Source of the DNA: a virus
IMG/VR virus record: IMGVR_UViG_3300025030_000306
Span: 1 to 33,694 of that record
DNA: 33,694 nucleotides
Strand: one strand, 5' to 3'
This document shows positions 10,416 to 33,694 of this stretch, in pieces; position 1 is the stretch's first letter; each line of letters starts with the position of its first letter. Below the pieces are notes generated by a model. It had not been told where the DNA came from. It ran no database searches and worked only from the letters and a program-made list of their open reading frames with translations. Made by a program: the position numbers and the translations under genes.

Positions 10416-12438
10416 AAATCCTCAGAATCAGCAAAGACTTAACCAGCTGATTTCAGCTACTAATGCCGTAGGTCAAGCCTTAAACAAAACTGGCGGCATG
10501 GTTTACGAGGTAACGGTTAACGGTTGGCTGTCTAACCCTTTAACTCATGTTCGCAATGTCATTTATAACGGAGGCACTTATGCCTACAGGTTCGCTGAAA
10601 CAGCTTCTAAAATCCCTATGGCCAAAACTTGGGCGCTAGCCGGTGGAGAAGACCTGACTGCTATGTACAGGGCCCAATTAACTACAGAGGTGTCGAGTCA
10701 AGTTAACGCTGTAAGAGAGGCATTCCTAGTAGCCTCTAAGTTCGGCCAGCCCCTGGAAAACTCATTACGGCAATTCGGTCTGCCAGCTGAGTTAGCGGCT
10801 GCGGATAAAGCTGGCATGACCAGGAGGTCTTGGCAGTTCCAACAGAATAACGCTTTGGCTTCTGTTATGAATATCCTTGGTAAGGTGGTAAACTTGCCGA
10901 GTACCTTCCTGAATCATGAAGACATATTTTTTAAAATACTCGCTTATAGGTCTGAACAGTATAAAATAGTTGCTGAGCGGGCTTTTGAAGTATACCGTCG
11001 TAACCCAAATATGACTAGTGCAGACATCGCTAACCTGTATAGTACTCTTACAACCCGACAGTTTAAGTCTGACCAAGAACGAGCTATACGGTCTGCTGAA
11101 GAGTCGACGTTTACCGGGCGCCAGCCATTTAAGTCTTTCTGGTCAAAAGGAGAGACTATGGCTCGGCAGCATCCATGGCTTAGGCCGATGATACCTTTTA
11201 CACGTGCACCTGTCAACGTCTTCAGGTGGAACTTAGAAAGGATGCCGGTTATAGGCCTTCTTATGCCCCGCAATGTCGAAGGATTTAAAGCAACAGTTAC
11301 AACCGGCAATCCTAAACCTACCTTTGATGCCCTGGGTAGGAATGCTCCGGCTGCAGTGCTTACAGGCGCGGCTGCAGCGACTATGGCGTATATGTGGGAT
11401 GAATGGGGCGTAGACTTAGACGGCCCTGGGCCTAGAAATGGCAAACAAATGGCTCTCTGGAAAGCCAACGGGCACCAAGAATGGACTGTTAAAGTCGGTG
11501 GAAAACGCATATCCTTTAAAGCCTTAGGCCCTATGGAAATTCCATTTCGTATGCTGGCCTTGTGGAAAACACATATGGCCCATGTCGATCTGGAAGACGA
11601 AGAAGGCCAGAAGGCCTATGAAGCCGGAGCATCATTAGTTATGGCCGGCATGCTTAACTTCGTGTCCGAGTCCACCTGGTTAGATAGTGCTCTAACATTC
11701 TCGGCCGCAATTGATGATGTAAACCGCCGTGATGACTTTGATAGACTTAACATCTGGCTTACACAGACTGGGTCAAGTGCTATAACTCCGTACTCTGGGC
11801 TGCTCGGGTTTATGACCAAGACTCTGGACCCGTCAGTAAAAGATATTAGGTCGTTTACGGATGCACTTAAAAGCCGGGTACCTATGCTGGCAGAAGAGCT
11901 ATCCATAAAACGAGATATGTACGGCGAGCCCCTTCACTACGAGAATGACTTGCGTAAAATGCTGGAGTTCTTTAACCCTGAACTCCGCAGCAAGTACTAC
12001 AATATCTTTGGAGAGCAGATTGATTTCTTGGACGTCGTGGGCTCTGATGTTGGGAATGTTGCCTGGTCTCCCAATCCTGACAAAGTAGATAAAGAGCTAG
12101 AGTCTATAGGCTTTCAGGTAATGCGTGTACGCCGAAGTTTTGAAAGCGTAGACCTGAGTCCTCAGGAATACGAAGTATTTCAATTGCTTGCTGCCCAACC
12201 ACCCGACTGGCCATCCTTAAAAGACCGGTTTAAAATGATAATGGGTAGACCTGACTATAATAAGTGGTCAGAACACCGTAAGACTGAGAAGTTCAGGGAA
12301 GTAACACGTAAGTACCGGGATCATGCAAAAGAGCTTATGCTTAAGAACCCAGACCTGGATGTTCGTCGTCGTTGGGAAGAGAAACAGGCTGAGCATAAAA
12401 CTTTACATAAACCGACGTTTATGGAGGCTAATCAATGA
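10357..12438 (+). CDS. Large polyvalent protein C-terminal part (LPD38-like), ejection protein
   Basis: A 693-residue protein whose residues ~45-90 contain GGMVYEVTVNGWLSNPLTHV followed by RNVIYNGG. This resembles the LPD38-type domain found at the C-terminus of phage large polyvalent proteins (N.lLS.P.THv.N...N). Further on, FNHEDIFFKILAYR, PFTRAPVNVFRWN and a hydrophobic stretch AAVLTGAAAATMAYMW agree with that type of membrane-interacting module. It starts at ATG 10357, with an AGGA ribosome site about 10 bases upstream, inside the end of the previous gene and in the +1 frame relative to it. It ends by ATGA overlap with the tail fibre gene. Confidence 0.65.
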   Translation: MSVNQLIKILQNNCATPVARNPQNQQRLNQLISATNAVGQALNKTGGMVYEVTVNGWLSNPLTHVRNVIYNGGTYAYRFAETASKIPMAKTWALAGGEDLTAMYRAQLTTEVSSQVNAVREAFLVASKFGQPLENSLRQFGLPAELAAADKAGMTRRSWQFQQNNALASVMNILGKVVNLPSTFLNHEDIFFKILAYRSEQYKIVAERAFEVYRRNPNMTSADIANLYSTLTTRQFKSDQERAIRSAEESTFTGRQPFKSFWSKGETMARQHPWLRPMIPFTRAPVNVFRWNLERMPVIGLLMPRNVEGFKATVTTGNPKPTFDALGRNAPAAVLTGAAAATMAYMWDEWGVDLDGPGPRNGKQMALWKANGHQEWTVKVGGKRISFKALGPMEIPFRMLALWKTHMAHVDLEDEEGQKAYEAGASLVMAGMLNFVSESTWLDSALTFSAAIDDVNRRDDFDRLNIWLTQTGSSAITPYSGLLGFMTKTLDPSVKDIRSFTDALKSRVPMLAEELSIKRDMYGEPLHYENDLRKMLEFFNPELRSKYYNIFGEQIDFLDVVGSDVGNVAWSPNPDKVDKELESIGFQVMRVRRSFESVDLSPQEYEVFQLLAAQPPDWPSLKDRFKMIMGRPDYNKWSEHRKTEKFREVTRKYRDHAKELMLKNPDLDVRRRWEEKQAEHKTLHKPTFMEANQ

Positions 12439-14288
12439 CAGTAGCACTAACCACGGCTAGCACTAACCTAGTGTACTCAGGGGAAGGCGATTATGACTTC
12501 CAGTTCCAAGTATATGATCCAGACACAGATTTAGAGGTTACTCATATTGCCGCTGATGGAGTAACTGAGACGCCGCTCACATACGGGGTTTCTGAAGACC
12601 CAGGGTATACCGCCGTAATTGACCAATCATACAATGGCACGGTTACTGTAGTTGATACTGGAAGCACTCTTGGGGCAACGGGGTACCTACGAATTGAGAG
12701 GAATACCACTCGTACTCAGTTAGTAGACTGGCTTAATGCCGGGCCTATGAACATGGATACGCTTGAGAGGTGTTTTGACAAGCTTACCATGATATGCCAA
12801 GAACTGCAGGACAGCCTGGACAACTTTACAATGTCCCTGAAAAACCAGGGAGACTGGGCTGCAGGTACTGAGTATGAAATAGGGGACCTAGTTATTTATG
12901 GAGGAGTCTACTACGTATGTATGGTAGCCCATACAGCTGGTACCTGGACCGCTAGTTATTGGGCGGAGTTTTTTGACCCGTCTCACACACACGCGGCCCC
13001 AGCAGCTAGTGCTGTGTCTTATGATAATGGGACTTCAGGGTTAACTGCTGATGATGTACAGGAAGCCCTAAATGAAGTAGCTGCGTTAGTCACTGGCCAG
13101 CCTGAAAGGTATCGAGGACTCTTTGATGCGTCTGGTGGAGTAGTTCCTGCGTGGGCTGATTTAACCGCCGGAGACTATGGGTATATCTCTGTATATGGCG
13201 TAATTGATGCCGTCACCTTCAGTGTTGGTGACCGGATTATTTACAATGGAACTACCTGGGATAGAATTCTTGCCATTCCTGGAACAGGTAAAAATTTGTT
13301 CCGTAACCCTAATTTTATACTTGATGCAACGGGCCAATTAGATCGAGGTCTAACAAGTAGTGCTATCGAAATCCCACTTACATCTGGGTGGTATAGGCCC
13401 ACTTCTTCAGTATACAATGATACTCCAGATTACTTGTGTGAACGGTCATCCTTAAAAGGTACTAGAGGATCAGCCGGTTATTACAGTATTAAAGCTGTAG
13501 CAGTTACAGGGGCTTATCATAGGGGCCATATGGCCCAGGTCTTAGAAACATCTTTAACAGACCTTGAGGGCAAGACTGTAACAGTATCTTCTGATATACA
13601 GCAAGGGAGCCTACGGGTATACGCAATACCTAAAACAGTAGGAACAAGGTATAATATAGTTAGCCTGGCCAGTATAGCGACCTATCTACTCGGCACTTTA
13701 ACTACTACTAACATGTCAGTTACAGGAGTATTTCCAGCCCCTCCTGGAACTGAAGATGGGTACTTAATGCTGCTTGTAGACACGAAAACAGATTACACGG
13801 ATGACGTCACATATGCCTGCCGATTCTCGTATTTAAAGTGCGAGTTAGGAGATAAACCCACAGCTTTTATAACCCCGTCTATAAATGAAGAAATCCAGAA
13901 TACTGAGCAGTATGCTGAGTCCTCTTTAGAAACAGGGTCTTGGGACGCTGATAATTTTTATACTCAAGCAGCCGCCTCCGGATGGACTGGGGCTGAAAAT
14001 CTCATCTTGGCTAAAGCCGTAGGGACTGGCACTGGGCCAATAGGATTTAGCGTTAAATATAGAACGGCGAAGCGTGGGACTTTAATCACTGTAGGTACAA
14101 AAACTCCGCCAGTAATTAGTTCTATTGCTGGCAGTACTATGGCGATTACAGCTGCTGCTGTAAATAGAACAGTATCTGCTATATATACAAACCGTAATAG
14201 CTTTCAACTGAAGAATATGTCTGGGGTAACTCTTACTGACCAAAGTCAGGTGGGCTATCACTGGTATGTACTTTACGAACTTCTTTAA
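12435..14288 (+). CDS. Tail fibre protein with T7 gp17-like N-terminal attachment domain
   Basis: A 617-residue protein. Residues 1-~135 match the T7 tail fibre N-terminal domain that docks the fibre to the tail: TTASTNLVYSGEGDYDFQFQ, then LRIERNTTRTQLVDWLNAGP and NMDTLERCFDKLTMICQEL. Residues ~138-172 (GDWAAGTEYEIGDLVIYGGV, YYVCMVAHTAGTW) look like a small chitin/carbohydrate-binding type 5/12 module. A coiled linker (TSGLTADDVQEALNEVAALV) follows, then a beta-rich distal part likely to touch the receptor. GGAGG at 12423-12427 precedes the start. Confidence 0.85.
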   Translation: MTVALTTASTNLVYSGEGDYDFQFQVYDPDTDLEVTHIAADGVTETPLTYGVSEDPGYTAVIDQSYNGTVTVVDTGSTLGATGYLRIERNTTRTQLVDWLNAGPMNMDTLERCFDKLTMICQELQDSLDNFTMSLKNQGDWAAGTEYEIGDLVIYGGVYYVCMVAHTAGTWTASYWAEFFDPSHTHAAPAASAVSYDNGTSGLTADDVQEALNEVAALVTGQPERYRGLFDASGGVVPAWADLTAGDYGYISVYGVIDAVTFSVGDRIIYNGTTWDRILAIPGTGKNLFRNPNFILDATGQLDRGLTSSAIEIPLTSGWYRPTSSVYNDTPDYLCERSSLKGTRGSAGYYSIKAVAVTGAYHRGHMAQVLETSLTDLEGKTVTVSSDIQQGSLRVYAIPKTVGTRYNIVSLASIATYLLGTLTTTNMSVTGVFPAPPGTEDGYLMLLVDTKTDYTDDVTYACRFSYLKCELGDKPTAFITPSINEEIQNTEQYAESSLETGSWDADNFYTQAAASGWTGAENLILAKAVGTGTGPIGFSVKYRTAKRGTLITVGTKTPPVISSIAGSTMAITAAAVNRTVSAIYTNRNSFQLKNMSGVTLTDQSQVGYHWYVLYELL

Positions 14289-14299
14289 GGAGAAAAACA

Positions 14300-14572
14300 A
14301 TGGCAGCTTTAGAAGAAACTTACACTAATGAGACGGGTACTGGAACAGCTGGTGCACTTCCTCAGGGTATCAATGAGTTCGTGGTAGGTGGAACTTTTAC
14401 AGGATACGTGCACCTTAAAATCCAAGACCCGAATGGTGATTACCGAGTTCTGGTTAGGACTAACAGGCCCCTGGTTAACTGTTTGTTTTACGTGGCCGAC
14501 CCTACCAGACTTTATCGTATTGACGCAGATCGTATTGTTGGAGAGGCCAAGGCTTACGCTGGGAGTGAATAA
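14300..14572 (+). CDS. Small fibre-region protein, unknown function
   Basis: A 90-residue protein with a good ribosome site (AAGGAG at 14288-14293). It opens with MAALEETYTNETGTGTAGAL and carries beta-strand-like stretches (FVVGGTFTGYVHLKIQDPNG, DYRVLVRTNRPLVNC). It lies between the tail fibre and the lectin-like protein and shares TAATG with the latter, so the two are probably co-translated. It could be a small fibre connector or chaperone, but the sequence supports no firm function. Confidence 0.6.
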   Translation: MAALEETYTNETGTGTAGALPQGINEFVVGGTFTGYVHLKIQDPNGDYRVLVRTNRPLVNCLFYVADPTRLYRIDADRIVGEAKAYAGSE

Positions 14573-16245
14573 TGTTACTTAGTCCTGACAGAGTATATTC
14601 TCGTACTATGCTTAAAGTGTATAGTCGAGAACGTGTGCATGCTATAGCTATGACTACTAGCAGTAATATGAATGATATCGGTGTTCCTAATGGCCCAGGG
14701 TTTGGCGTCGGTATCTGTCCCGCGCTCCCCGCTAATTTTTCGCTGATAACTGGCACCACCGATTCGACGCGACTGCATGACAACTACGGCAACTACCAGT
14801 ATGCGGACGGTTCAATTATGGTCTGGGTTCCGGCGTTTTATTACCGGATCGGCCACGCCTCCAACCCGACCTATGCTACATACGGGGTCAACTCGGTTGA
14901 TGTAAAGCCCTACTCATATTTTGCTGACGTGACCGCTGCCAACGCGGCCGGGTACGCCTTGCATAGGGCTTTTCATGACGGCGGGGCGATCAAGCGCGGG
15001 TTTATGGTGGACAAGTATCTGTGCTCGCGCAATGCCTGGGGTACCGGATATATCGCCAGCTCGGTAAAAAACGGCAACCCGCTCTCTGCGCACGCAGATC
15101 ACAACCCGATGACTGGCCTCACTGCCTGCGCGGCCAATGCCTATTACGAGGCGTTCAACGCGGCGCACGCCCGAGACGGCGTGAATGGGGCGGTCAATGC
15201 CAGCTCGATATTTTTCCCCGGATCCAGGTTCATCATCAGCGCTCTGGCCCTGCTGGCTACGGCGCACGGGCAGGTGGCCAGCTCGACCAACAACTGCTCC
15301 TGGTACAGCGCCACCACCAACTTTCCCAAAGGCTGCAACAACAACGCCCTGGCCGACGCCAATGATACGGCGGTCAAATGGGAGTCGGACGGGTACAGCC
15401 AGTGCGGCAAGACCGGCAGCGCAGGGTACGGCGGCGGGGCGGGCAACGTCTTTGCCAAGTCCACACACAACGGGCAAAACTGCGGCATCGCGGACCTTAA
15501 CGGCCTGATGTGGGAGATCAGCCCCGGCATCTCCAGTATTGCCGCAACGGTGGCCATTGCCGGGATGACCCGCGCGAACCCCTGCGCGGTCACCTGGACA
15601 GCGCACGGGCTGACCACCGGCGCGGTGGTGATGGTCGGCGGCGACACGGATATCACTCAAGCCGGCTGGACCGCGCTGAACGATAAGCTGTTCGCCATCA
15701 CCAGAATCGACGACAACAGTTTTTCCCTGGCCGGCGTCGACTCCAGCGGGTTTGCCGCAGATTATGATCCGGTTGCAGACCCCGGCACGATCACCAAGGC
15801 CACGTTCTACACGGCCAAGGAGACGGTGGCCATGCGGACGTTCACCGGCGGCAACAGTGCAGCAACCGATCACTGGGGCGCCACCGGCATCGCGGCGACG
15901 ATGGACGCATTTTCCCCGGCCTTCGAGACCACCTATCCAAACAATGGCAACGTGATGCGCTTCGGCGACGGGGCCGGCCAGGTGCTGTCCGAAGCAACCA
16001 GCGGTGCGGGGTGGCTGAAGTCTGGCCTTGGTTTCCCTGTTTCCTTGTCTGGCATCTCTGCCGCCGGGACAAACCTGTTCGGCGCAGACTACTATTACCA
16101 GTGGCTGCGAGGTGACCTGGGCCTGCTGTCCGGCGCGGGTTGGAGCAACGTTGCGTATGCCGGGGTTTGGGCGGCCTATTGGAGTGGCCGTCGGGCGACT
16201 TCGGGCGGCGACGTGGGCTTTCGGCTCGCCTGTTACCCTGTCTAA
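14572..16245 (+). CDS. Receptor-binding C-type-lectin/FGE-fold tail protein resembling DGR variable proteins
   Basis: A 557-residue protein. The first ~40 residues use the AT-rich phage codons; from ~14,690 the gene is markedly GC-rich. From residue ~43 it reads like phage tail adhesins of the formylglycine-generating-enzyme/C-type-lectin fold: GNYQYADGSIMVWVPAFYYR, AGYALHRAFHDGG and DLNGLMWEISPG. The C-terminus (GWSNVAYAGVWAAYWSGRRA, then GGDVGFRLACYPV) resembles the variable region of diversity-generating retroelement target proteins, where surface codons are diversified. Residues ~321-409 look like an inserted FCCH-type beta domain (AHGLTTGAVVMVGG, NSFSLAGVDSSGF). No reverse transcriptase or template repeat is seen in this window. 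It is probably the distal host-recognition protein. Confidence 0.75.
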   Translation: MLLSPDRVYSRTMLKVYSRERVHAIAMTTSSNMNDIGVPNGPGFGVGICPALPANFSLITGTTDSTRLHDNYGNYQYADGSIMVWVPAFYYRIGHASNPTYATYGVNSVDVKPYSYFADVTAANAAGYALHRAFHDGGAIKRGFMVDKYLCSRNAWGTGYIASSVKNGNPLSAHADHNPMTGLTACAANAYYEAFNAAHARDGVNGAVNASSIFFPGSRFIISALALLATAHGQVASSTNNCSWYSATTNFPKGCNNNALADANDTAVKWESDGYSQCGKTGSAGYGGGAGNVFAKSTHNGQNCGIADLNGLMWEISPGISSIAATVAIAGMTRANPCAVTWTAHGLTTGAVVMVGGDTDITQAGWTALNDKLFAITRIDDNSFSLAGVDSSGFAADYDPVADPGTITKATFYTAKETVAMRTFTGGNSAATDHWGATGIAATMDAFSPAFETTYPNNGNVMRFGDGAGQVLSEATSGAGWLKSGLGFPVSLSGISAAGTNLFGADYYYQWLRGDLGLLSGAGWSNVAYAGVWAAYWSGRRATSGGDVGFRLACYPV

Positions 16246-16303
16246 GCGAGCGATAGCGAGTGGTTATGAGCGCTGATTCAGAATCAATCTCGGGAGGGGT
16301 GTA

Positions 16304-16477
16304 ATGAATGATATAACTTATAGTCCAATTGACAGGGTTTTTAATAGAGTTCTTCAAAAAGAATTCGAGGACCCTAGCGGCTTTATTTCTATAAATACTC
16401 TCGTTACTACTGGAGTAATAGAAATAGATGGAACTACTATTGAAGTAGACGGAACTACTATTGAGGTAGATAAATGA
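16304..16477 (+). CDS. 57-residue protein with a short internal repeat, unknown function
   Basis: ATG 16304 follows GGGAGGGG (16292-16299). The protein starts MNDITYSPIDRVFNRVLQKE and ends in a duplicated strand, IEIDGTTIEVDGTTIEVDK. Its TGA overlaps the next start (ATGA at 16474-16477), so it is coupled to the first exported protein. AT-rich codons match the phage backbone rather than the GC-rich gene before it. The repetitive beta-like end suggests a structural peptide, but no function is recognised. Confidence 0.6.
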   Translation: MNDITYSPIDRVFNRVLQKEFEDPSGFISINTLVTTGVIEIDGTTIEVDGTTIEVDK

Positions 16478-33283: not shown

Positions 33284-33694
33284 ATTGTTTTCTTACCTCC
33301 GCATTCATAGTATCTATGAAAGTTCTTTTCCATGAAAGTTATTTGTTCAGGTGTTGGCTGTAATTTAGAAACTGCAAATGCGTGGTATAACAACTGAGCA
33401 GAGATTTTATCACAAACTTTTATTGTAAGAGAAGTACACTGTAAAGGAATGCTTGAGTAGTCAATATCCGCCCCGAAGAGATTCGCCCCGGAGAGATTCG
33501 TCTCGGAGAGATCCGCCCCGGAGAGATCTGCCCCGAAGAGATTCGCCCTGGAGAGATTCGCCCTGGAGAGATCCGCCCTGGAGAGATTCGCCCTGGAGAG
33601 ATTCGCCCTGGAGAGATTCGCCCTGGAGAGATCCGCCCTGGAGAGATTCGCCCTGGAGAGATTCGCCCCGGAGAGATCCGCCCCGGAGAGATTC
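33265..33694 (-). CDS. Pentapeptide-repeat protein (partial, start lies beyond the right edge)
   Basis: The open frame enters from the right edge and stops at TAG (33267-33265), 142 residues in the window. It reads as A(D/N)LSR/G repeats (for example ADLSGANLSRANLS), a right-handed quadrilateral beta-helix, then a C-terminal domain: DIDYSSIPLQCTSLTIKVCD, KISAQLLYHAF and FHRYYECGGK. The same tail (W/P.C.S...K.D..I.AQL.YH ... FHR..ECG) is found on other phage pentapeptide proteins. Pentapeptide proteins can mimic DNA (as Qnr/MfpA do with gyrase), but no such role can be proven here. Confidence 0.82.
   Translation of the reverse strand, partial: NLSGADLSGANLSRANLSRADLSRANLSRANLSRANLSRADLSRANLSRANLFGADLSGADLSETNLSGANLFGADIDYSSIPLQCTSLTIKVCDKISAQLLYHAFAVSKLQPTPEQITFMEKNFHRYYECGGKKTICSANN
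33472..33694 (-). repeat. 15-bp tandem DNA repeat coding for pentapeptides
   Basis: About 15 copies of a 15-bp unit (plus-strand form GAGAGATTCGCCCTG with few variants such as ATCCGCC, CCCCGGA) run to the window edge. Near-perfect identity of the inner copies shows recent expansion by slippage or unequal crossing over; copies near the C-terminal end of the protein are more diverged. Confidence 0.88.

Follow-up and report, generated by a model that had tools for sequence, protein, structure and literature searches.

Diversity-generating retroelement (DGR) cassettes of the BPP-1 type, consisting of Mtd, avd, a template repeat (TR) and brt, and the lectin targets found in phages are among the described systems closest to the locus analyzed here. 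GRNA-loop elements located 4–34 bp past the variable region (VR) are required for retrohoming in BPP-1 (PMC3240598), and reconstituted DGRs work on a reporter target supplied separately (PMC12875486). Target genes without machinery are also known. Treponema denticola isolates having neither reverse transcriptase (RT) nor TR retain leftover DGR target genes (PMC4891356), and in cyanobacteria, which harbor variable proteins without a proximal RT such as all3226, it has been suggested that the machinery was removed once an optimal variant had arisen (PMC7517822). Because DGR surveys look for an RT adjoining the repeat, RT-less targets are invisible to them (PMC8144416).

Such a target is found in the window, that is, the whole 33,694-nucleotide stretch of the virus record IMGVR_UViG_3300025030_000306, in which a plus-strand ORF at 14572–16245 encodes a protein of 557 amino acids. 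Like the BPP-1-type systems, it has a C-terminal VR in a lectin-fold tail protein, adenine-specific rewriting and a GRNA-loop element right after the VR, and the cassettes of its relatives are arranged in the order VR, avd, TR and RT; unlike them, avd in the window is cut after about seven codons, and neither TR nor RT is present. The likeness to the T. denticola leftovers is that the target outlives the core DGR and that its VR differs from the TR of a relative in an adenine-specific way, whereas the genes there are bacterial and the window presents a phage tail gene, an avd scar and, among its relatives, many parallel losses with mapped breakpoints. The cyanobacterial cases are dispersed paralogues in one genome, in contrast to the loss in place in a phage.

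The ORF at 14572–16245 is a true DGR variable protein gene, since its close relatives carry TR/RT cassettes adjoining the homologous gene and its VR shows the adenine-specific pattern; the preliminary description, made from sequence alone, had called it only similar to such genes. The protein, a putative receptor-binding protein, ends in GWSNVAYAGVWAAYWSGRRATSGGDVGFRLACYPV, in which the same description saw a resemblance to DGR variable regions in the C-type-lectin/FGE fold, and the structural comparison agrees with this. The best PDB matches of its AlphaFold model (pLDDT 83.6) are three chains of TaqVP, the Thermus aquaticus DGR variable protein (PDB 5vf4; PMC6328139), with an E value of 7e-10, and the VR lies in the lectin-fold C-terminus. 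TaqVP matches over most of the model, but sequence identity is 14%, and the window protein has an additional domain inserted at about residues 322–427. This inserted domain resembles the phage major tail protein family phrog_584, and its fold is like that of the FCCH domain of ubiquitin E1 enzymes. A Pfam scan of the lectin protein gave no named domain.

The VR (16117–16231, plus strand) aligns with the TRs of two intact relatives, L003 and L001. As the window has no TR of its own, the foreign TR of L003 was used for comparison: the window VR differs from it at 20 of 28 adenines and at 5 of 79 other positions (Fisher p ~4e-11), a VR-like character far beyond chance. No such bias exists elsewhere in the gene, where 60/258 adenines and 218/1038 other bases differ, at about equal frequency. 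Several of the non-adenine differences from the L003 TR agree with the TR of L001, as would follow from a lost TR closely related to these two. Viewed by codon, the changes are found mainly in N codons (AAT/AAC) at residues 523–547. The 3′ end of the VR (16213–16231, plus strand), an IMH-like GTGGGCTTTCGGCTCGCCT with GCCT as in VRs where TRs have GACT, is the same as in intact L003 and L005 and one base off in L001. Judged from this pattern, the window VR was written by a DGR.

The region past the VR retains further marks of a target. The element GCGAGCGATAGCGAGTGG with a GATA (GRNA-type) loop at 16246–16263 (plus strand) occurs at an equal position and with near-identical sequence in the RT-positive relatives L001, L003, L004 and L005, and is the same in L004. 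The stem predicted for it is weak, at −1.3 kcal/mol, and does not surpass those of shuffled sequences, so that its function rests on conservation and the literature. The first 45 nt past the stop codon (TAAGCGAGCGATAGCGAGTGGTTATGAGCGCTGATTCAGAATCA) are identical to L001 at 40 positions. Beyond the GATA element, 22 of 27 nt are identical to L001, while the best chance match in other stretches of the window reaches 15–17 of 27. This is the start of avd: the ORF following the VR in L001 is bAvd according to Pfam, and codons 1–7 read MSADSES in the window and MSANSEA in L001. The homology stops at about 16287, leaving some seven avd codons (16266–16286) in a short plus-strand ORF, MSADSESISGGV (16266–16304), which runs as far as the following gene's start codon (16304). 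Thus, the machinery is missing at its usual place.

The remainder of a DGR was not found in this linear fragment. No PF00078 match to RT is present in the window, avd has no match anywhere in it and its remnant gives no protein-level match, general repeat finding detected short chance repeats only, and both strands, scanned specifically with tolerance for adenine mismatches, gave no TR. Its statement that neither RT nor an adenine-rich template is seen in the window therefore holds.

Relatives show what is missing. Fifty homologous loci were found among viral contigs, with RT in 31 of these first 50 records; in most RT-holding records the VR is followed by a TR about 570 nt downstream, and the VR mismatches are almost all at adenines. 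A larger census covers 105 loci out of 445 homologous stretches: 63 have RT and TR, 30 are without intact RT (a class that requires at least 1.5 kb of downstream sequence and includes the window), one has RT with no TR found, and 11 are unclassed. L177 has RT beside the lectin gene and no TR within 3 kb. A broken RT is kept in two of the 30 RT-less loci. L150 is an early stage of decay, with an intact TR and an RT (at about +650) interrupted by a stop codon. In L142, from about +34 past the VR, avd is in frame with the C-terminal half of RT in a 321-amino-acid open frame, and TR and the N-terminus of RT are missing. Among the loci nearest to the window, about one third are without intact RT; in a second sample centered on L170, only 3 of 32 determinable new loci are RT-less, and therefore the frequency varies. 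The genome-contig search gave two relatives only, RT-positive L071 and L072, which has no RT beside the gene.

Some of the losses can be followed to their breakpoints. L027 is 98.6% identical to L026 until 259 nt past the VR gene and resumes at the RT end; about 1.15 kb are lost and 8 nt overlap at the junction, so that an L026-like cassette has been cleanly deleted. Further pairs with mapped breakpoints are L018 and L025, L002 and L003, and L035 and L036. Remnants of avd and/or RT are found in L008, L017 and L019 and also in L011, L191, L183 and L167, the latter four having avd and RT remnants joined or an RT tail. In a maximum-likelihood tree built from the lectin gene outside the VR, the RT-less state requires 23 changes (18 of them forced by supported branches), compared with 25.2 when labels are shuffled, and the sister of the window is RT-positive L001 (SH-aLRT 99). 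On this tree the RT-less loci appear scattered almost at random and near the tips, pointing to many independent losses.

The window gene also stands out from the phage that carries it. A module of about 62% GC at 14650–16290 lies in a phage of 45% GC, with its right edge at the avd scar and its left edge near lectin codon 27, and, because of this difference, was probably imported. The window has phage genes for tail-tube-type and internal-virion proteins, DNA polymerase, helicase and ligase; the tail-tube and helicase queries gave only distant sibling phages with 31–44% protein identity, and 16 sibling phages checked have neither RT nor a full-length lectin homologue. From the GC step and these core-gene relatives, the module would have arrived cassette-less or have lost its cassette later; the data fit both. 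Directly upstream of the lectin gene, 12435–14288 encodes a tail-fiber-like protein with a CBM_5_12 carbohydrate-binding module, a candidate for a second receptor-binding protein. A Bbp16-type gene as in BPP-1 had been suggested as well, but no such family was recognized with Pfam and PHROGs among the left-end ORFs tested. At the other end, a 15-nt tandem repeat (33436–33694) corresponds to minus-strand pentapeptide repeats; the contig end falls inside it, which is probably why the assembly stopped.

Taken together, the gene at 14572–16245 is very probably an orphaned DGR target, which lost its cassette and kept its last VR as a fixed allele. A lectin-fold tail gene, presumably for receptor binding, would have been diversified by a DGR with the order VR, GATA element, avd, TR and RT, and a GC-rich module would then have brought it into this lineage of phages. 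Either in the course of import or through a later deletion, everything from about avd codon 8 on, namely the rest of avd, TR and RT, would have been lost, and the last DGR-written VR may have been kept as a fixed receptor-binding allele, so that the loss would have fixed the specificity and the gene would now be frozen. Of the three possibilities raised in the preliminary description, a decayed target is the best supported, with the GATA element and the avd start kept and then a break; diversification in trans is less supported, and an RT beyond the window is unlikely, given that almost all intact relatives have theirs 611–872 nt from the VR. Points against an orphan are that the avd scar is as short as seven codons, that a scan for siblings with the window's own junction found none, that part of the phage is unseen as the window is a linear fragment, and that the VRs of one RT-less pair of relatives diverge (see below). 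That the gene is an ordinary lectin-fold tail protein and never was a DGR target has next to no probability: the window is without RT and TR and the Pfam scan is without a named domain, as this would require, but the adenine-biased VR, the TaqVP match, the avd scar and the RT-positive sister are against it, and the comparison with the TR of a relative refuted it.

Whether such genes are frozen can be asked of pairs of relatives. The parent DGRs are active, since in many RT-positive pairs the flanks are identical (0/695) and 14–22 of about 117 VR positions differ; a few such pairs have identical VRs and may be one phage. TR adenines account for 17/17 and 17/18 of the VR differences in two RT-positive pairs, and for 12 of 13 between L026 and L027, the latter already cassette-less. 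The RT-less L137, L138 and L140 have 0–1 VR differences, as expected of frozen genes. RT-less L013 and L170 have a common junction (2 differences in the 300 nt downstream) and differ at 14 of 107 VR positions, an ungapped count preferred to the 10/125 of a gapped alignment because these VRs align without indels, and the amino-acid changes fall at DGR-type codons; further siblings of this pair were sought, and none was found. Diversification after cassette loss is thus possible in this pair. It favors the explanation that the window target, too, is still diversified in trans by RT, Avd and TR of a co-infecting phage, a prophage or a host with a matching TR, as do the action of reconstituted DGRs on a separate reporter (PMC12875486) and the 3′ end of the VR and the GATA element, which are kept as in active relatives and, being intact, could still serve as a trans target. 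However, the frozen appearance of the other RT-less trio and the position of RT-less loci at scattered tips rather than in persisting clades make it unlikely, and the divergence of L013 and L170 could also come from gene conversion confined to the VR, from parallel, repeated loss or from a remote RT beyond the fragment. A working DGR with RT and TR located elsewhere in the genome and acting from a distance is very unlikely: this linear fragment does end in a tandem repeat, and bacteria are known to have remote targets (PMC4891356; PMC7517822), but RT starts 611–872 nt past the VR end in all intact loci except one outlier at 18, the avd scar is exactly at the expected place of the cassette, and the records of other RT-less viral loci, some of 40–118 kb, show no RT elsewhere.

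Applied to the family, it is quite unlikely that cassette-less lectin genes in general stay diversified in trans, the phages shedding the mutator, keeping the target site and using the DGRs of others. If so, phages would use DGRs of other phages or hosts, and DGR activity would be a shared good in the community.

Orphan DGR targets were already known, and the more interesting part is the family-wide pattern of loss. Because many relatives lost it independently, loss of DGR machinery seems to be common among them, and the literature searched yielded no description of cassette loss recurring in the tail lectins of phages. The many independent losses near the tips suggest a cycle in which phages diversify the target, shed the mutator and persist briefly. 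Is deletion of the mutator a way for phages to fix a good receptor-binding allele, and does the cassette-less state prove a dead end? This question is testable, and near-identical pairs such as L026 and L027 are ready material for it.
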